Shown one piece after another: positions 47,383 through 61,028 of a stretch of DNA of 64,000 bases. The stretch's first letter is position 1, and every line of letters begins with the position of its first letter. The stretch covers positions 124,001-188,000 of the forward strand of contig LODT01000028.1 in assembly GCA_001606155.1 (NCBI GenBank). Direction: 5' to 3'. This DNA comes from Tieghemostelium lacteum. Taxonomy: Eukaryota; Evosea; Eumycetozoa; Dictyosteliales; Raperosteliaceae. A program made the translations under genes and the position numbers. The notes beneath the pieces were generated by a model. It made no database searches. It worked only from the letters and a program-made list of their open reading frames with translations, and was not told where the DNA came from.

Positions 47383-48084
47383 ATGTTAAAGAATATAATT
47401 ATTTGCTCATTATTATTGATTGCATTGGTAAATGCTAAAGATTGTTTAAAGGAAGACAAAGGATTTAGCTCTGGTGTCGCCATTTTCAGTGTAAATGGTG
47501 TTTCAAATGGTCAAAATGGTCCTGCAACATTTGTTGAATTCTCACAAATCACTATTGATTATGTAGGTCAACAATTGTTTACTGATTACTGGATTACTGA
47601 AGATATGAAACAATTCCAAGGTGCTCTCTACGCTTACAATTCCAATCAGACAATATACATTGTTGCCAACGGACAATGTTCACAACAACCATTGAGTTTT
47701 GATATTCCATCTGGTATTCCAAAGAATTTTACTGATATAGGTAAAGTAAAGATTGGTAAATTTGATACCAGAGGTTTGGAATATAACAATACCGCCCAAG
47801 GTTACAATTCTGTTGTTCTTTATGATGACGTTAAATGTGCTGTTGTATCCATCTCTACTGAGAATCTAGATTTAAACAATCCAGGTTACACTTTGGCCAA
47901 CTATTATGATTTCAAAGATACTCCAAAGTATTCTGATTTCCAACTCCCAGAAATCTGTTATAACTCTGGTTCAAGCTCTGATGCCAAATTTGAAATCAAA
48001 ACCAATACTTATCAACAACAATCTGAATCATCAGCTATTAAATTACCACATGTTTTAGACTTTTTACCAAAAAGACACAACTAA
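47383..48084 (+). CDS. Secreted ependymin-like protein
   Basis: Single exon, 233 aa. A clear signal peptide (MLKNIIICSLLLIALVNA, cleavage likely after Ala18) precedes a Cys-poor beta-rich body. The order TIYIVANGQC, SFDIPSGIPKNF, KCAVVSIS, NYYDF and a terminal FQLPEIC resembles ependymin-related proteins, which are small secreted or lysosomal lipid-binding proteins also found in Dictyostelium. The match is by pattern of cysteines and motifs only. NQT, NFT and NNT glycosylation sites are present. The C-terminal extension (QQQSESSAIKLPHVL) is outside the family. Confidence 0.55.
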   Translation: MLKNIIICSLLLIALVNAKDCLKEDKGFSSGVAIFSVNGVSNGQNGPATFVEFSQITIDYVGQQLFTDYWITEDMKQFQGALYAYNSNQTIYIVANGQCSQQPLSFDIPSGIPKNFTDIGKVKIGKFDTRGLEYNNTAQGYNSVVLYDDVKCAVVSISTENLDLNNPGYTLANYYDFKDTPKYSDFQLPEICYNSGSSSDAKFEIKTNTYQQQSESSAIKLPHVLDFLPKRHN

Positions 48085-48196: not shown

Positions 48197-49069
48197 ATGA
48201 ATAAAGTTGAAAATATTGAAACTAAAGTGAATAGTAATAAAAAGAGAGTATCAGATAATGATGGTATTGATAGAAAGAAAAGAAATAAAAAGTATAAGAA
48301 TATAAAACAAGATGAGAAACCTATAGGAATTGTTGAATGTCCATTATGTGAATGTAATGATCCTTTAGTGGTTGTTGAATATATATATTTACATAGAAAA
48401 TACTATTTTACATGTAACCAATGTACATTGGTATTTGTACATTCTAAATATCATGTAACGAATGAAAAAGAAAAAGAAAGATACGAACATCACCACAATT
48501 CACCACTAGATCAAAAGTATAAAGATTTCTTAAAACCAGCAATTGATAAACTGTTACCTTTACTAAAAGACACTATGGAAAAGAGTCAAAAGACTAAGGA
48601 GGATTTAGTAGGACTGGACTATGGATGTGGTCCAACACCTACACTTTCAGTAATGTTTAAGGAACTTGGTTACCAAATGGAGAATTATGATCCTTATTTT
48701 CAACCAAATGAAACTGTTCAATCCATTGAAACTTTGAAAGATAAACCATCTCAGATACTAGAAAAGAGATTTGATTTTATAACATGTACAGAAGCAATAG
48801 AACATTTTAATAAACCATTACAAGATCTGAGGAAACTATTGGACTATGGCTTATTGATGGACAATGGTTGTCTACTAATAATGACACAATTACTAAAAAA
48901 TGATGAAATGTTTAAGAATTGGTTTTATCCAAGAGATCAAACTCATATTTGTTTCTTTAGAAAATCAACTTTTGAGTGGATAGCAAAGAAATTTCAAAGG
49001 GAAGTGACCATATTTGAAGAAGAAAATATAATTATTATTAAAAATACCGAAAAATCATCAATAAAATGA
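48197..49069 (+). CDS. Class I SAM-dependent methyltransferase, bacterial type, with N-terminal Cys pair
   Basis: Single exon, 290 aa. A Lys-rich start (about 45 residues) precedes a zinc-ribbon-like CPLC...CNQC pair and the segment LVFVHSKYHVTNEKEKERYEHHHNSPLD. The Rossmann core starts LVGLDYGCGPTPTLSVMF (SAM motif I), with YDPYF acidic strand 2, FDFITCTEAIEHF (post-II), LLIMTQLL and THICFFRKSTFEWIA. This order is characteristic of a methyltransferase family common in Proteobacteria. Its acceptor is unknown to me. The codon use is amoeba-like and a T-run precedes the ATG, so it is domesticated. It is followed, on the same strand 204 bp later, by an adenosylhomocysteinase-family gene. Confidence 0.75.
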   Translation: MNKVENIETKVNSNKKRVSDNDGIDRKKRNKKYKNIKQDEKPIGIVECPLCECNDPLVVVEYIYLHRKYYFTCNQCTLVFVHSKYHVTNEKEKERYEHHHNSPLDQKYKDFLKPAIDKLLPLLKDTMEKSQKTKEDLVGLDYGCGPTPTLSVMFKELGYQMENYDPYFQPNETVQSIETLKDKPSQILEKRFDFITCTEAIEHFNKPLQDLRKLLDYGLLMDNGCLLIMTQLLKNDEMFKNWFYPRDQTHICFFRKSTFEWIAKKFQREVTIFEEENIIIIKNTEKSSIK

Positions 49070-49273
49070 TACATCAGAAGTGTAAGATAATCTGCAATAA
49101 CTTTAGAGATGGCATGCGATTGATGTGACCCCGCTTCTATTTTCTGAAAAGTTTTTCATTGATTTTTTCTGAATTCCCCAAAACTGCATGGCATGAAAAT
49201 CAGGTAAAGTGGTTGCCAACTAGTATATTTGTCAGATTAAGTAATCTATTTTGAACTTGTACGAATATTATTT
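49070..49273 (+). promoter_or_regulatory. Bacterial-looking spacer before the SAHH-family gene
   Basis: 204 bp that lack the long A/T runs typical of this genome and contain GC-richer words (GGCATGCGATTGATGTGACC). A TTGAAC hexamer and AT-rich downstream words sit just before the ATG, but no convincing Shine-Dalgarno site is seen. The segment seems to belong with the following gene rather than with the amoeba DNA. Confidence 0.35.
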
Positions 49274-50761
49274 ATGAAAGAATCGTCAATAGCAGCACAA
49301 CAAATAAATCAGCTTCAGCCTGATGAAAAAAAGAAGGTTCCTTTGTCAAATACACAGGCTTTTTTTGCCCCAAAAGACTACACCATTCCTCGTTTAGTGC
49401 TTCTTGATGATATGGTGGCACTTTTCAAACACGAAAACTTTTTACCGAATTTAGAAAATACACTATTGATTGGTGTACAGCATATTTTGGAAACAACAGT
49501 CACTTTATTTGATAGCCTGCATGCATTAGGTCTTCCTTACGAAAACATGTATTTTTCTGGTAAGTGTTATTCCACAGCACCAGAAATAGAAGCACAAGTG
49601 CGTAAACGAGGCATCAGATTAATGTCAAGCAACAAGCCAGAGGAATTTGGCCAGTATGAAAAATATGCTTATATAGGGATACAAAAGATGTGGCATATTT
49701 TTTGCAGAGATGTTGAAAAACGGCAGCAACCAGTAGATAGGGTTATTATTCTTGATGAAGGTGGACGTTGTTTAGAAAAGTTGCCAAATTGGATAGGTTT
49801 AAAATATAAAATGGCAGCTGTGGAGCAAACAACTGCAGGGTTTCATAGTAAAGCCCTTCACTCATTGCTCTTTCCTCTCATTGATGTTGCCCATAGTGCG
49901 GTTAAAAAAAATCTGGAGCCACCACTAATTGTTGATGCAATAGAACGTAAGTTCAAAGAGTTCATGGAAGATCAGCGTCTACCTAAAGATACGATTATTG
50001 GTGTTATTGGTAATGGTGCTATTGGAAGGAGTTTATGTCGATATGTGTTATCACAAGGCTATACTGTTTTTATTTATGATCAGGATGAAAATTCATTTCA
50101 ACAGGATCTTCATAAAAATTTTTATCGATTAAGCCGTATTGAAGATGTTATTTCTACAGCCAATTATATTTTCGGTTGTACAGGAAAAGACATCACGAAA
50201 GGCATTGATGTCTTATCTCTTGTGAAACAAGATAAAGTTTTTGTGAGTTGTTCCTCTGAAGACAAAGAATTTAACTCTCTTTTACGAGCTATATCCTATG
50301 GAGCTATGTATGTTGATACTCTCTCAGATATTGTTTTTTCAAGCCACAATCGAAGTAAAATTACAGTGCTACGAGGAGGCTTCCCTTTTAATTTTGATAG
50401 AACCCCTTTCAGTGTACCCGCAAAGAGTATAGAAGTCACAAGAGGTCTCTTATTGGCAGCTTGTATTCAAGCGATTACTTGTGCACATAAGTTAGAGGAG
50501 GGCGAGTTTATTATTAATCGTCCAAACCGACAGTGCCTTAATCCAATGATGCAATCTTATGTTGCATTGCATTGGCTTTGCCGCCAACCATCAGAAAAAT
50601 ATGATCCAGGATTGATGAAAATTTTTGAAGATGTCATTTGGATTCAAAAGAATTCTGGTGGAAAACCTTGTTCTGATCCTGATATTGAAAAGCATTTTGA
50701 GATAGCTTTGACAAAGCTGCAAACTGAAATCTTTAACTTAAAACCTAAATCTAAATTTTAA
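49274..50761 (+). CDS. S-adenosylhomocysteine hydrolase-family protein, likely acquired from bacteria
   Basis: Single exon, 495 aa. It aligns by eye with adenosylhomocysteinase: LLIGVQHILETTVTLFDSL (family HMTxxTAVL), VIILDEGG (family DDGG), AAVEQTTAGFHS (family EETTTG), PLIDVAHSAVKKNL (family NDSVTKSK) and the NAD loop GVIGNGAIGRSL. Several substrate residues differ: EETT has become EQTT, the Asn/Asp of the NDSV...D segment are not kept, and the C-terminal Lys/Tyr tail is missing. It may therefore bind the cofactor but not be a normal hydrolase. Codon use (CGT, GGC, GTG, CTT, GCA) and simple intronless structure differ from the neighbours and recall Legionella-like gamma-proteobacteria. Lateral transfer is the best reading; contamination is less likely, since host genes flank it on both sides. 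Confidence 0.8.
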   Translation: MKESSIAAQQINQLQPDEKKKVPLSNTQAFFAPKDYTIPRLVLLDDMVALFKHENFLPNLENTLLIGVQHILETTVTLFDSLHALGLPYENMYFSGKCYSTAPEIEAQVRKRGIRLMSSNKPEEFGQYEKYAYIGIQKMWHIFCRDVEKRQQPVDRVIILDEGGRCLEKLPNWIGLKYKMAAVEQTTAGFHSKALHSLLFPLIDVAHSAVKKNLEPPLIVDAIERKFKEFMEDQRLPKDTIIGVIGNGAIGRSLCRYVLSQGYTVFIYDQDENSFQQDLHKNFYRLSRIEDVISTANYIFGCTGKDITKGIDVLSLVKQDKVFVSCSSEDKEFNSLLRAISYGAMYVDTLSDIVFSSHNRSKITVLRGGFPFNFDRTPFSVPAKSIEVTRGLLLAACIQAITCAHKLEEGEFIINRPNRQCLNPMMQSYVALHWLCRQPSEKYDPGLMKIFEDVIWIQKNSGGKPCSDPDIEKHFEIALTKLQTEIFNLKPKSKF

Positions 50762-51180
50762 TAAATTATTCAGTATTTTGATCTAGAACTATTCTGTGTG
50801 AATGAACACATTGTAAATATTCAACACAAATTTCAATGATACTGACACAGATATTTAATTTTTATTTTTTAATTTAACACTCTTTATTCTTTATTTTTTA
50901 TTCATTAAATTGAAAAAGTGGGTGTGAGTGAATTTATAAAATACTAAAAATACTTAAATTAGTAATATAAAATGTTTTTAACATTGATTAAATAAAGATT
51001 TTGTATTCTTTTAATCGATTCATCAGTATACATTAGATTTAAATCTTACATAAATATTTAAAATACTCTGAGACAAGGTTGCATAATAATTAAATTCTAT
51101 AAATAGCTAGTAATTTTTATTTTTCTAATCATTAAATCAAGTTTATTAAATTAAATTAAATTAAAAATCTAAATACTAAA
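50762..51180. promoter_or_regulatory. Intergenic region
   Basis: 419 bp. Composition returns to the A/T-rich host style about 100 bp after the stop. It holds the promoter of the small gene at 51181, with an AAATTAAATTAAATTAAA stretch just before it. Nothing else is seen. Confidence 0.4.
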
Positions 51181-51978: not shown

Positions 51979-52659
51979 TTGGAAGTGGATTTAGTCAATG
52001 AGGACAGTGTTTCAAATGCACTGAAAAAAACTGTTGGCAAATTTGGAAGAGTTGATGTCATTGTAAATAATGCTGGTCAATCAATATTAGGTGCAGTTGA
52101 AGAATTCTCTGATGTTGAGATTAGATCTCTATTTGATTCCAATCTATTTGGACCATTGAATGTTATCAGACATGCATTGAAATATCTCAGACCTCAAAAA
52201 AGTGGATTGATTTACAATATCAGTAGTATTGCTGGTTTCATTGGAAATGCAATGACTGGTAGTTATTCAGCAACTAAATTTGCACTATCTGGTGTATCTG
52301 AATCATTAAAAGAAGAATTAAAACCATTTGGAATACAAGTTTGTTCAGTTAACCCAGGTATGGTTTCAACACCAATCCTCAATAAAATTGTATATCCAGA
52401 TCTCACAATCACTGATTACCAATCCAGAGAGATGTTAACTTCATTTTACAAATACAGAGAATCAATTAATCTTCCTGGAACAGATTCTGATAAATTAGCC
52501 AAACTCCTAATCCAAGTCTCCTTAGAATCCTGTATACCAGCTTACTTATTCTGTGGTATAGATGCCAATAATACAAGTAAAGATAAAATCACAAAACTCA
52601 CCGATACCATCACCAAAAATGAAAAGAGAGCTGGAATTGATATTTTAGAATCAAAATAA
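51979..52659 (+). pseudogene. 5'-truncated short-chain dehydrogenase
   Basis: About 226 codons open. The frame enters at LEVDLVNEDSVSNALKK and keeps the classical SDR features: VIVNNAG, the Ser in YNISSIAG, the catalytic YSATK and CSVNPGMVSTPIL. About 60 residues with the cofactor motif TGxxxGIG that should precede it are absent, there is no ATG at the open frame's start, and an in-frame stop lies just upstream (51964-51966). An undetected upstream exon is possible but no matching DNA is visible for 550 bp. An SDR without its glycine-rich loop should not bind NAD(P), so a decayed or truncated copy is likely. Confidence 0.6.
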
Positions 52660-56256: not shown

Positions 56257-59200
56257 TTATTTATGTACATTGAAAAGGGCCATAAGATGGTCTGGTATTA
56301 GAATTTGTATTAGGTTGTTATTTTTGCACCAAGTCTTGGTGAACATTTTGATTTGAAATTTGATCGAGGATATACATTGGTTTTTCACCTTGTCTATAGT
56401 GGTACTGTGGTGGAGTCTCCAGTGTTTGGACATTAGGCCGAACGTTTTTTCCCATTCTGCTCTTTTAGCTATATTCATCTTGTAGGTGACAGCTAGCCAG
56501 TTCAGTTCCATATCAATTTTATCGTGGTTTTTCTTATTTCTCGAATACCATATGAAGTCAAACAATATAGCAATAAATGAACCCAATACTGGGTTGTTGA
56601 TTTGGTTTAATATTCTTTGGTTCCATTGGTATCTACTTGATAGAACTCTTTCTTGAATATTCTTTATGAAACCCAGTCTTTTACAGGTAAAGAATATGTG
56701 TTCTGACGTTTCTGTTTCCTTGCAGAATGGACACACACTACCATGGACTTTTGGTAAAGCTTTAAGTATATATCTCCACATCAGGTCTCTACCTTTGTTA
56801 TTATGACAGTTCTTCAGGTTTTTGAGGATGTGGGGTAGATTTACATTCTCTTCTCTTAATTTTCTTTGGCCCTCAGTGAGTATCATCACTTCTCTTTGAC
56901 CGTCTATACGTTTCATCATTATTTCATATATTTCTTTTAGTCTTATTCTTCTATTGGTTCCTTCTGGAATTGTCTTGGAACCTATTTCTGTTTTAGAGTT
57001 TGTGTAATCTTTCCATGCTTCATAACAGTTTTTCATAAATTCAGACGGCATGTTGTTTCTCCATCTATGTATCCATGCATCCTCGTAGGAGACTGCTAGA
57101 GCTGAAGATCTATTTAATCTGTTGATGAAGGTGGTAAAAATCCAAGCTTTTTGAGCCCTTGCTCTAATATCCATTTTCCATAGACTGATTCCACCATGTA
57201 GAATTGATTTGGACGCTCTTGCTTGTGATATTTTGTTTCTATTTTTCTTGGTAGGGTCCCAGTCTTTGCTAGAGTATAAGAACCATTTACATAGTTCCTC
57301 CAGTTTGTCCATTTGGAATGAGTCTATATATAAGTGGTATGTCATTTTAGACAGGATGTATGACTTTAAGATGGCCATTCTCCCTCTGAATGTAGAGGAT
57401 CTTGTTTTCCACAGCTTCATCAATCTTTCACAGTTGTCTATTAACCTTTCACCTTGTGAGACTACTCCATAGCTGTTAAAAAACATACCTAGGTACCTTT
57501 CACTTTGAATTGCTGTGGCAATGGGGTAAGGTAGATTTCTGTTAGTTATTAGTTTCTTGTTCTTGCTGTTGGCTGAATTAAACGCCATTATTACACATTT
57601 GTCCGTATTGATTGATGATGATGTTGCCCGACAGAACTTTTTGATTACCTCATCCACAATCTCGAATTCCTTTTCGTCTTTAGCCATTGTTAGGGTGTCG
57701 TCTGCAAATGACAACAATCTGCAATGCACTCCATAATTTGATAACTCTTCAGTCATTGGCAGACCACCTATCCTTGGATGACTTAGGATTACTCTGGCCA
57801 TACATTCCATTACTAAAACAAATATAGTGGGTGAGAGTGGGTCACCTTGTCTGGTCCCTCTCTCGTTTGAGAAGGGTTTGGAGAATGTTCCTCTTATATA
57901 ACATTGTGTTGTAGCTCCTTCCAACATTGACATAATGGCCCTCACTAGTGTTGTAGGCAGCTTTAAGTGAATGAGTGTTCGTCTTATTGCTCCGTGAGAT
58001 ACACTATCGAATGCTTTGCAGAAATCATATAATGTTATCAGGGCTCTAGGTAATCTATTTTGAGTTTTTTTGTGGTTTATAACGTCGATTACCTCCTTTA
58101 GTGATATTAGGTTGTCCTGGATCAGTCTGCCTGGTACGAAACCAGTTTGGAATCTTGATATACAGCTTGGTAGCAATTTTATCAACCTGCTGTTGATAAT
58201 TTTTGAGAATAGTTTGTAGTCTACATTTAATAGTGTTATTGGTCTCCAATTGGAGAGGTCTGATCTGTCTCCTTTTCCTTTATACGAAGCTATTAGGACT
58301 CCTTTTTTAAATTCATTTGGTACTCCATTCCTGAACCACTCATAGAATAGATTGCTCAGGAGTGGTGCAATAACTTCTATGTGTGTTTTGTACATAGTAG
58401 ACGTCAGCCCGTCTATCCCTGGTGCCTTACCATCTGATATCTTTTGAATTGCTAGTGTTACTTCATCTAGAGAAATTGGATCTTCTATTTCCTGTAGAAT
58501 TTTCAATTGTATCATTGGATTCCACGATTTTAGCAGTACTTCGTGCGTGGTTGGATCATCTGGTTTCATTTTGAATAGGTCTTCATAGAACATCCCCGCT
58601 GCTTCTACTATCTCTGTGTGTGTAGTCACTATTGTATTCGTTCTACTGTTTATAAGTGCTTCCACCTGCGAGTCTCTTTCTTTTGACTTAAGTGTGGCCG
58701 TCAACAATTTAGATGGGACTTCCCCATATAACAGCTTGTTCACACTTGATTTCACGTAGTTATCCTTAAGTTGGATATCTGCTATTTCATTAATTCTTTC
58801 TGCTATTGCTTTCTTTTGTGTAGGATTACTTTGCAAGGATGCTAGTAACCTCTTTTTTTCTTTCTCAATTTCGGTTATTCTCTTCCTTTCAAAATCTTTG
58901 TAGAATTTTTTAATCTCTACTTTCATTTTACTCCATTTTGCAGACACTTCCCCACTCCCTAATGCTTCTATTTTGGATTTGAGGTAGTTCTGCATTGTTG
59001 AGAACACTGAGTGTTCTTTACAAATCTCTGTATTTAGAGACCATCTTCTAGTAGGTATTATTGGGGGTGAAAAGAATGCAAAGGTGTATTCTAGGATTAG
59101 GTGATCACTTTTACTTGGAACTACTGTATTTAACCTTGCCTGTGATCTAACCCTCTCGGATACAAATATTCTGTCTATGTATTTTCTCCCACCCCAGGTT

Positions 59201-59712
59201 GGTGTTGGGGTGGGTAATTCTTTTAATTGATGTGATGATGTTGCGAATTTTAACTTCCTGTTTATTTCTTTGGAGGAATTCCTATCTACATTAAAGTCCC
59301 CAATCATTATATCCACCTCCTCTAGCCATTCTTGTTTAACAATTTCATCGTACCATATGTTTTGTCTTTGGTCTTCATTAGAAGCTGGTGCGTATATTCC
59401 CAATATCACCAAGGATCTCTCTCCTTGTTTTACTCTGAATTTTATTGCCCTACCTTCCAGTTGCTTGATTTCTTCTATTTGTTGATTGTTGTTGTGATTA
59501 ATTACTATCATCCCATTTCCCATGTTGGTACTTGGATTGAATATTCTGTCTTTTAATCTTCTATCGTTCTTTATATTGTCTTCTTTAGTTGATTTCGTCT
59601 CTCCTAGAATCGAAATATTTGACTTCAGGGGTGTGATGTTAGTGAAGACTTCGTTAAGGCTTTTGATTCCTGAGCACCCCTGAACATTATGATATATTAG
59701 TTTGAAATTCAT
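56257..59712 (-). CDS. LINE ORF2: endonuclease / reverse transcriptase
   Basis: 1151 aa without interruption. Residues 1 to about 225 form an APE-type endonuclease (YHNVQGCSG, ILGETKS, IMIGDFNVD, YIDRIFVSE, PSKSDHLIL), keeping the expected Asn, Glu, Asp and His. Reverse transcriptase follows from about 430 to 720 (NWRPITLLNVDYKLFSKII, FQTGFVPGR, GTRQGDPLSP and the catalytic FADDT near 668). Near residue 1000 lies a C-terminal zinc motif (VCPFCKETETSEHIFFTC), the zf-RVT type. The endonuclease nicks target DNA and the RT primes on the nick. Its ATG overlaps the ORF1 stop in an ATGA tetranucleotide. Confidence 0.95.
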   Translation of the reverse strand: MNFKLIYHNVQGCSGIKSLNEVFTNITPLKSNISILGETKSTKEDNIKNDRRLKDRIFNPSTNMGNGMIVINHNNNQQIEEIKQLEGRAIKFRVKQGERSLVILGIYAPASNEDQRQNIWYDEIVKQEWLEEVDIMIGDFNVDRNSSKEINRKLKFATSSHQLKELPTPTPTWGGRKYIDRIFVSERVRSQARLNTVVPSKSDHLILEYTFAFFSPPIIPTRRWSLNTEICKEHSVFSTMQNYLKSKIEALGSGEVSAKWSKMKVEIKKFYKDFERKRITEIEKEKKRLLASLQSNPTQKKAIAERINEIADIQLKDNYVKSSVNKLLYGEVPSKLLTATLKSKERDSQVEALINSRTNTIVTTHTEIVEAAGMFYEDLFKMKPDDPTTHEVLLKSWNPMIQLKILQEIEDPISLDEVTLAIQKISDGKAPGIDGLTSTMYKTHIEVIAPLLSNLFYEWFRNGVPNEFKKGVLIASYKGKGDRSDLSNWRPITLLNVDYKLFSKIINSRLIKLLPSCISRFQTGFVPGRLIQDNLISLKEVIDVINHKKTQNRLPRALITLYDFCKAFDSVSHGAIRRTLIHLKLPTTLVRAIMSMLEGATTQCYIRGTFSKPFSNERGTRQGDPLSPTIFVLVMECMARVILSHPRIGGLPMTEELSNYGVHCRLLSFADDTLTMAKDEKEFEIVDEVIKKFCRATSSSINTDKCVIMAFNSANSKNKKLITNRNLPYPIATAIQSERYLGMFFNSYGVVSQGERLIDNCERLMKLWKTRSSTFRGRMAILKSYILSKMTYHLYIDSFQMDKLEELCKWFLYSSKDWDPTKKNRNKISQARASKSILHGGISLWKMDIRARAQKAWIFTTFINRLNRSSALAVSYEDAWIHRWRNNMPSEFMKNCYEAWKDYTNSKTEIGSKTIPEGTNRRIRLKEIYEIMMKRIDGQREVMILTEGQRKLREENVNLPHILKNLKNCHNNKGRDLMWRYILKALPKVHGSVCPFCKETETSEHIFFTCKRLGFIKNIQERVLSSRYQWNQRILNQINNPVLGSFIAILFDFIWYSRNKKNHDKIDMELNWLAVTYKMNIAKRAEWEKTFGLMSKHWRLHHSTTIDKVKNQCISSIKFQIKMFTKTWCKNNNLIQILIPDHLMALFNVHK

Positions 59713-60785
59713 TTCTTGAAGGTTGATGACCTTGTGGGGACCTTTTTTGTTTGAATGACCCCAGTAGGTTTGTCTATATTGATCAACTTACTTAACTTCG
59801 TTTTAATCTGTGGTTTATCCCACCATGTTGGGCCCTCAGACTCTTTATCTGTTCCATTATCATCTAATTTTTCATCTTTTTTTTTTTTTTCAATTTCTTT
59901 AATTTTTTCATTATTGAAGACATCAATATCCTCTTGAGATTTTTCATTTGTTTCTTTTGTTAATAGATTATTCTCGTCAGTTGATATGACTTCTGGTTCT
60001 ACTATTTTATCCACTTTTTCATTTTCTACATTGTTCTCTCTCTGTTTCATTAGTACCTCTTCTATTTGAGACTCGAGGGTATTCTGGACTGAAGCTTCTT
60101 TGGGTTTTAGTTCTTCAGCTGTCATCATCATTATCTCACCATGTTTTACCAATGCCTCCCTCTTCAGTGTTTCTGGAGCCTTTTCATTCATTTGAGTTGT
60201 TTTTTTGTGTTTTTTGGTTGTTTTGTTGTCGTCGGTGAATATCTTGAAACAGTCACTCACCATGAGACTCTCTTTTTCACTGTATTGTTTCACATACTGA
60301 ATATTGCTATAGATTTTTAAACAGTTGAACTGGTCCACTTTCCATGTGACTTTCCCTGGAGTGTCGTTGAAAAACTCGTTGATTACTATGTCTTCCCACT
60401 TGTAGAACTCGTCTGGTTGGACTATGGTAATCTGATGGTCTGTGAGTTTGACATTGCATCTTTTACTTCTGATCAGTATATCCAGCTGCTGGTTTGAATC
60501 AGTTAGTAAGTGTAACCATTTGTTATCCTTACTGATTTTAACCTTAACTTCATCTGACCAATTCAGAAGCTTTTTCATATCTTCAAGAGATCTTTCTTTT
60601 AGTGCGCAGCATAGATGGAATTTATATACTTTCATATTTCCTTTTAGTGCTGCAAAGAAGCTCTTGTTCTTCAGCTTGATTGATGCAAGAACGTTGTTGT
60701 TATTCCATGTCTTGCTGAGTTCTTGGAAATCAGGAGGTTTGGGCGTGGCCACTTCAGCGTAGCTGGGTTGACCTCTTTCAGGCAT
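59709..60785 (-). CDS. LINE ORF1 protein
   Basis: 358 aa. The start MPERGQPSYAEVATPKPPDF is followed by a region with RNA-recognition-like alternation (FHLCCALKERSLEDMKKLL, LHLLTDSNQQLDILI). The second half is highly charged and rich in Lys/Glu with coiled-coil potential, including a Lys-rich run coded by an A-tract. No CCHC zinc knuckle is present. ORF1 proteins of LINEs bind element RNA as nucleic-acid chaperones, and that role is inferred here. The TGA stop shares two bases with the ORF2 start. Confidence 0.85.
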   Translation of the reverse strand: MPERGQPSYAEVATPKPPDFQELSKTWNNNNVLASIKLKNKSFFAALKGNMKVYKFHLCCALKERSLEDMKKLLNWSDEVKVKISKDNKWLHLLTDSNQQLDILIRSKRCNVKLTDHQITIVQPDEFYKWEDIVINEFFNDTPGKVTWKVDQFNCLKIYSNIQYVKQYSEKESLMVSDCFKIFTDDNKTTKKHKKTTQMNEKAPETLKREALVKHGEIMMMTAEELKPKEASVQNTLESQIEEVLMKQRENNVENEKVDKIVEPEVISTDENNLLTKETNEKSQEDIDVFNNEKIKEIEKKKKDEKLDDNGTDKESEGPTWWDKPQIKTKLSKLINIDKPTGVIQTKKVPTRSSTFKK

Positions 60786-60948: not shown

Positions 60949-61028
60949 ATACTCTTGCCCGAGTTGGTTATGGGGTTGCATTAAGGCTGCAATGTGAAAA
61001 CGCGAGGGTTCGAGTCCCTCAGAGTACA
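60949..61028 (+). tRNA. tRNA-Leu (anticodon AAG)
   Basis: Folds as a class II tRNA of 80 nt: acceptor ATACTCT/AGAGTAC (the first pair is an A-C mismatch), short D-arm CCC/GGG, anticodon stem TTGCA/TGCAA with loop TTAAGGC (anticodon AAG, reading CUU), long variable arm, and T-arm GAGGG/CCCTC with loop TTCGAGT. Internal promoter A box (TTGCCCGAGTTGG) and B box (GGTTCGAGTCC) are present, and a T5 terminator follows (61032-61036). There is no intron. Confidence 0.9.

Follow-up and report, generated by a model that had tools for sequence, protein, structure and literature searches.

A bacterial-type gene of the S-adenosylhomocysteine hydrolase superfamily beside a methyltransferase gene in the social amoeba Tieghemostelium lacteum

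Organization of the locus

The stretch analyzed here (the window) was a 64,000-bp part of a 1.86-Mb contig of the dictyostelid Tieghemostelium lacteum (genome: 23.33 Mb in 43 contigs). It contained two open reading frames (ORFs) on the same strand, 204 bp apart, at exactly the coordinates that an original prediction from the sequence alone had given: (i) a 290-aa ORF (48197-49069, +) with a zinc-ribbon-like CPLC...CNQC N-terminus followed by a class I S-adenosylmethionine (SAM) methyltransferase domain, its match to PF13489 (E = 2e-23) bearing out its naming as a SAM methyltransferase; and (ii) an uninterrupted 495-aa ORF (49274-50761, +), matched once in the amoeba genome and referred to here as the S-adenosylhomocysteine hydrolase (SAHH)-like gene. 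The spacer (49070-49273) had a GC content of 0.33. The approximate downstream edge of a putative foreign stretch was placed by eye at 50762-50857 (GC 0.25), with AT-rich host sequence beyond. The upstream neighbor was a host gene for an amoebozoan ependymin-domain protein (47383-48084, +; PF25544, E = 8e-40), and the downstream neighbor, outside the foreign stretch, was an ORF for a short-chain dehydrogenase whose codon use matched that of the host (51979-52659, +). A search of the spacer and the downstream stretch for remnants of bacterial neighbor genes gave weak short matches only (best E = 0.008 over 18 residues).

That bacterial DNA was misjoined into an amoeba contig is very improbable: non-host codon use (see below) and a single genome match would fit such an artifact, but contamination normally yields whole bacterial contigs, while the fragment in question measured about 1.8 kb and lay inside the 1.86-Mb contig with host genes on both sides. 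The published account of the T. lacteum assembly (PMC4931340), which gives 23.4 Mb in 54 gap-free contigs, describes fosmid end maps and primer walking, and this also argues against a misjoin.

Relationship of the SAHH-like protein to SAHH

The second gene had been assigned to the adenosylhomocysteinase family, which structure and a two-row profile (A1) upheld and family signatures did not. The protein had the SAHH fold and aligned structurally with SAHH at 15-20% identity, and its relation to SAHH was firm from profile A1 plus structure; by sequence alone it was only remotely SAHH-like, with no PF05221 or PF00670 match at E 0.001, an NCBIfam adenosylhomocysteinase score of 13.2 bits (below the cut-off of 440), and 'Adenosylhomocysteinase 3' as the top PDB sequence match at E = 7.5e-5.

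The NAD site was present as G246/G248/G251 (GxGxxG) plus D269, all invariant in 21 bacterial rows; D269, the acidic residue after strand 2, corresponded to E244 of the host SAHH. Of the residues that we take to be the ribose and catalytic ones of SAHH (H55, D131, E156, K186, and D190; human numbering), the first four were kept as H70, D161, E184, and K211, and the D190 position was occupied by E215, with Glu in 21/21 bacterial rows. T57, H301, and H353, presumably the adenine-side and gating residues, were replaced by L72, S328, and S380, and the C195 equivalent was also replaced. The positions of Lys426/Tyr430, which we assume to clamp the NAD of the neighboring subunit from the C-terminus, were gaps in 19 and other residues in 2 of the 21 bacterial rows; the window residues aligned to them were K490 and S493 (not Tyr), in a poorly modeled C-terminal end. 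All 27 columns that were invariant among 16 bacterial rows were conserved in the amoeba copy.

The protein would be an NAD-dependent SAHH-superfamily enzyme that keeps the machinery for oxidizing a ribose-type 3'-OH (H70, D161, E184, K211, E215, and GxGxxG...D269); since residues on the adenine side and the Lys/Tyr pair that clamps NAD from the C-terminus are lost, its reaction would probably be a redox or elimination step, with some other nucleoside- or sugar-like compound as substrate, and not the hydrolysis of S-adenosylhomocysteine (SAH).

The amoeba genome contained two true SAHHs: (i) an ordinary one of 432 aa and (ii) a fused one of 790 aa (G000:C18 ~271170-273461, -; locus L005:1498-3867, -), in which a complete SAHH stood behind a cobalamin-independent methionine-synthase (MetE-type) catalytic domain (PF01717, 1.9e-144; PF05221, 2.3e-129). 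The fused ORF was the sole strong PF01717 match in the genome, the second match reaching only E = 1e-10, and the fusion could recycle SAH to methionine within one chain. Because the genome has two true SAHHs, the host does not need the SAHH-like gene for SAH; their presence and the residue losses weaken the earlier suggestion that the second protein clears SAH.

Codon usage and base composition

Codon use was scored in ln-units per codon (host versus Legionella), with a host table from 15 hand-chosen window ORFs (retrotransposon left out) and a Legionella table from the ORFs of five loci. The SAHH-like gene scored -0.051 against 0.072 to 0.197 for the 15 host ORFs, while the methyltransferase gene was host-like at 0.128; simulations with the amino acids of the SAHH-like gene gave 0.131 +/- 0.020 under the host table and -0.166 +/- 0.029 under the Legionella table. 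The SAHH-like gene was thus clearly not an ordinary host gene by codon use, and the contrast that had been noted between an amoeba-like first gene and an atypical second one was reproduced; the differing codon use likewise favors the proposal that the two genes had separate histories. The spacer had the highest GC of 34 inter-ORF gaps >60 bp (ORFs as listed in the analysis) and is possibly foreign DNA brought in with the SAHH-like gene.

An untranscribed, dead insertion, in which a recent bacterial fragment has kept its frame only for want of decay time, is unlikely but deserves real weight. It would agree with the non-host codon use, the single copy, and the lack, by eye, of an AT-rich promoter-like stretch directly upstream. 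Against it, 495 codons were open and the family-invariant columns were retained (27/27, see above), and neutral divergence of 5% should have introduced about 4.6 stops; at 1-2% divergence the expectation is 0.9-1.8 stops, and the open frame would then be compatible with decay.

Distribution and phylogeny of the SAHH-like family

Relatives of the SAHH-like protein were sought in genome contigs, plasmids, phages, and viral contigs. Profile A1 found 22 loci in the genome contigs and had no match in the viral contigs; single-protein scans found nothing in either, and the phage collection had no match to the SAHH-like protein or to the methyltransferase. The plasmids gave one match at E 1e-5 (Simkania negevensis plasmid pSn; 29% identity, WP_053225318.1, annotated 'hypothetical protein') and three records at E 0.1; with the Simkania protein as query, 22 plasmid records were found at E 0.01, including several that are annotated as true SAHHs.

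The top relatives, at 30-35% identity, came from a Coxiella-labelled metagenome-assembled genome (MAG), Legionella yabuuchiae, L. shakespearei, L. saoudiensis, L. worsleiensis, another Legionella, two unclassified gammaproteobacterial MAGs, Cysteiniphilum, and a Caedibacter-labelled MAG, followed by Simkaniaceae (30%). A 41-row tree placed the window protein beside ten Legionella/Coxiella-type rows (89/76) within a gammaproteobacterial group (91/91). The nearest relatives in the collections searched were bacterial and the codon use was not that of the host, a combination that points to lateral transfer.

The family was patchily distributed and much commoner in the order of Legionella and in Chlamydiota, both with many protist-dwelling members, than in Pseudomonadota at large: (i) 7/143 genomes of the Legionella order had a match at E 1e-80 or better, and 94/143 had some match at 1e-10, matches that we read for the most part as true SAHHs or as different NAD enzymes; (ii) 19/190 Chlamydiota genomes had a strong match and 23/190 one at 1e-10; and (iii) 1/398 Pseudomonadota genomes, where scoring covered at most four candidates per genome, had one at E 1e-25, and this was the centre genome.

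SAHH-like domains also formed part of giant proteins, with open frames of 2385-4196 aa, in two Legionella-order genomes, G149 and G150 (L092:693-10736, -; L093:2594-9712, +; and L094). The L092 protein had ankyrin repeats and a NACHT match, and the L093 protein had both ankyrin and Sel1 repeats along with a protein kinase. The possibility that these were polyketide synthases was rejected, as Pfam showed L092 and L093 to be ankyrin-rich. Among the literature matches listed, no title or abstract opening dealt with the amoeba SAHH-like gene, with SAHH-like genes of Chlamydiae, with polyketide synthases that contain an SAHH domain, or with a fusion of methionine synthase to SAHH in Dictyostelium.

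The methyltransferase gene

The methyltransferase belonged to a zinc-ribbon methyltransferase family, was up to 42% identical to Pseudomonadota relatives, and aligned with 13 bacterial relatives (one marginal) over the part that begins near residue 46 and runs to the C-terminus; it had an N-terminal extension and internal inserts that were not seen in these 13 rows. Its relatives were sought in the 21 genomes bearing the SAHH-like family, the 398 Pseudomonadota genomes, plasmids, phages, and viral contigs: they occurred in 38/398 Pseudomonadota genomes (E 1e-15) and three plasmid records, with no match in the viral contigs.

The original prediction of a linked pair had called for adjacency of the two families in bacteria, and this was not borne out. 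Only 3 of the 21 genomes with the SAHH-like family held a methyltransferase relative at E 1e-5 (G012, 42%; G018, 36%; and G016, marginal at E 5e-6), and in none of the three did the two genes share a contig; at 51 compared loci, no neighboring ORF resembled the methyltransferase above chance (best E = 0.20); and in the Pseudomonadota survey the first family was present in 38 genomes and the second in one. Because of its host codon use, the separate contigs in 3/21 genomes, and the lack of a match at the 51 loci, the methyltransferase gene was judged to be probably resident, with the bacterial fragment landing behind it; it may itself be an older, fully ameliorated transfer.

Gene neighborhoods of the SAHH-like family in bacteria

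Thirteen gammaproteobacterial loci (L014-L024, L089, and L090) were compared. A divergent PAS histidine kinase of one family lay directly upstream of the SAHH-like gene in eight of them (L015, L017, L018, L019, L022, L024, L089, and L090) and one gene further away, behind a Methyltransf_23 gene, in L014; it was absent at L016, L020, L021, and L023. The kinases were confirmed by Pfam at L017, L024, L089, and L090 (receiver domain present) and at L018 (receiver absent), and assigned by BLAST clustering and visible PAS sequence at L015, L019, and L022.

In 19 Chlamydiota genomes, neighbors were counted by BLAST/phmmer similarity to Pfam-named examples, the counts being lower bounds as several contigs were short. 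Near the SAHH-like gene were found an EamA transporter in at least 8/19 genomes (in three of these joined to an FkbM-like half), FkbM-like methyltransferases in at least 8/19, a small MTS methyltransferase in at least 5/19, and a short-chain dehydrogenase/reductase (SDR) in at least 5/19. MTS or FkbM methyltransferases were near the gene in at least 9/19 genomes, and directly adjacent and co-directional in six (L098, L102, L104, L106, L107, and L109). FkbM (PF05050) had 0-6 copies per genome and was near the SAHH-like gene in 7/19; the chance expectation, roughly estimated from genome size and copy number, is less than one. The EamA-like plus FkbM-like fusions of about 670-700 aa lay at L098:10754-12778 (FkbM-like by similarity only), L106:4613-6706, and L111:1470-3491. 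The Simkania plasmid had a further annotated methyltransferase, outside these counts, about 5 kb from the SAHH-like gene.

A methyltransferase/SAHH-like link therefore exists in Chlamydiota, but with methyltransferase families other than that of the window, which speaks in part for the proposed association. That the two amoeba genes were acquired together as a functional unit, in which the SAHH-like protein disposes of the methyltransferase by-product, is highly unlikely: their same-strand adjacency and the Chlamydiota arrangements (9/19 genomes, six adjacent and co-directional) speak for it, and their differing codon histories, the rarity and separate placement of methyltransferase relatives (3/21 genomes on other contigs; 0/51 loci), the lost SAHH adenine-side residues, and the two true SAHHs of the host speak against it.

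More distant relatives sat near HIT, adenylate-kinase-like, PycTM, or phosphoribosyltransferase (PRTase)/HAD genes, a setting that likewise suggests nucleotide-like chemistry. SAHH-like and HIT-family genes occurred together at L026:6767-9833, L027:6194-9164, L113:6258-9025, and L114:1545-4156, with a PycTM-like membrane effector at L026 (at L027 by similarity) and an adenylate-kinase-like gene at L113 (at L114 by similarity); these four sets are possibly a nucleotide-based system, and those of L026/L027 may be a defense set. PADLOC, run on 10 proteins, had matches only for two L026 neighbors (PycTM; ThsC/HIT weakly) and gave no defense family for the window protein, for which a defense reading was set aside. 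A Streptomyces sp. NBC_01724 plasmid (L009:4444-10741) harbored a tight set of GNAT, NAD(P)-dependent oxidoreductase, hypothetical, methyltransferase, phosphoribosyltransferase, and HAD genes, which looks like a nucleoside-type biosynthetic operon; its oxidoreductase resembled the Simkania SAHH-like protein (E = 2e-10) yet did not reach the profile cut-off.

The neighborhoods also bear on the possibility that the donor protein was a secreted, host-directed enzyme taken by the amoeba from a parasite and not a member of a biosynthetic set. We consider this quite improbable: the frequency of the family in the Legionella order and Chlamydiota relative to Pseudomonadota at large and its occurrence inside giant ankyrin-repeat proteins of two Legionella-order genomes would suit it, but the domains in the giant proteins were distant members (~90 bits), and stand-alone genes adjoined PAS histidine kinase, methyltransferase, SDR, and transporter genes, which suggests metabolism or signaling.

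A broader proposal, rather unlikely and put forward tentatively, is that the SAHH-like family stands at the center of a previously undescribed pathway for a nucleoside- or sugar-derived small molecule in protist-dwelling bacteria and that the amoeba captured its key enzyme. The SAHH-like enzyme would oxidize the ribose with NAD, FkbM/MTS enzymes would perform O-methylation, an SDR would carry out a reduction, EamA would provide export, and the PAS histidine kinase would act in sensing; the amoeba would perhaps read, make, or destroy the signal of its symbionts, comparable to the earlier dictyostelid capture of c-di-GMP synthesis.

Other features of the window

A LINE-type non-LTR retrotransposon (56257-60785, -) contained an ORF2 of 1151 aa (endonuclease plus reverse transcriptase) preceded by a 358-aa ORF, which started about 160 bp from a tRNA-Leu gene (60949-61028, +). 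We take this element to resemble the tRNA-targeting TRE elements of dictyostelids.

Interpretation and comparison with known systems

We favor, at a probability of about 0.6, the fairly recent capture of one bacterial gene that landed by chance beside a resident methyltransferase gene and encodes a redox or elimination enzyme acting on a substrate other than SAH. The donor would most likely be a gammaproteobacterium, as yet unsampled, of the Legionella/Coxiella/Fastidiosibacteraceae kind, with insertion just downstream of the methyltransferase gene; because the gene would have landed beside a resident one, the pairing in the amoeba is probably accidental. Lateral transfer of the SAHH-like gene is well supported, and this much remains of the laterally acquired modification unit first proposed; the joint role with the methyltransferase does not. 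In bacteria, the small gene sets around the family look suited to the production, transport, or sensing of a small molecule, with methyltransferase, SDR/ADH, and EamA/MFS transporter genes in Chlamydiota and the divergent PAS histidine kinase in Legionella relatives.

Several points weigh against this interpretation. The codon score of -0.051 is intermediate between the simulated Legionella (-0.166) and host (0.131) values, and the gene is partly ameliorated or its donor had intermediate codon usage; the two retrotransposon ORFs are also atypical (0.072 and -0.012), so odd codon use by itself is no proof of bacterial origin, and it is from codon use only that the recency of the transfer is read. 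The spacer GC is not extreme and lends weak support, as 13% of 695 non-ORF 150-bp windows reach 0.33. Both tree forks (89/76 and 91/91) fall under the starred support level, the window protein sits on a long branch (1.22), and the tree program cautions that long branches come together among the neighbors (L024 with L020/L021). The nearest relative is only ~35% identical, so the comparison stops short of naming a donor, and the collections searched had no eukaryote set among them. The substrate assignment uses presumed SAHH residue roles and an alignment at ~20% identity or less, and the amoeba gene could be unexpressed.

The locus presents what looks like a recent transfer of one gene into a multicellular amoeba, the bacterial lineage of origin being one in which many members dwell in protists. 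It also singles out an uncharacterized branch of the SAHH superfamily whose genes in bacteria are tied to those for methyltransferases, for transporters, and for a histidine kinase; should such a set make a signal or effector metabolite, it would reveal an unrecognized layer of symbiont-host chemistry.

The amoeba protein was compared with four known systems. It shares with SAHH (AhcY) the fold and the GxGxxG NAD site but has other residues in place of T57, H301, H353, and C195, carries Glu for D190, and is without the C-terminal Lys/Tyr and a PF05221 match. AHCYL1/AHCYL2 (IRBIT family), its top PDB sequence matches (3gvp and 3mtg), set a precedent for an SAHH fold without SAH hydrolysis; they are far nearer to SAHH than the amoeba protein is, whose relatives found here are bacterial instead. 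The SAHH-like genes of Legionella, Coxiella-type MAGs, Cysteiniphilum, and Chlamydiota belong to the same family but often lie near histidine kinase or methyltransferase/SDR/EamA genes, whereas the amoeba copy stands alone. The dictyostelid genes dgcA, iptA, and chlA are likewise bacterial genes captured by social amoebae and, as given in PMC4931340, have known developmental roles, while the SAHH-like gene is recent-looking and uncharacterized.
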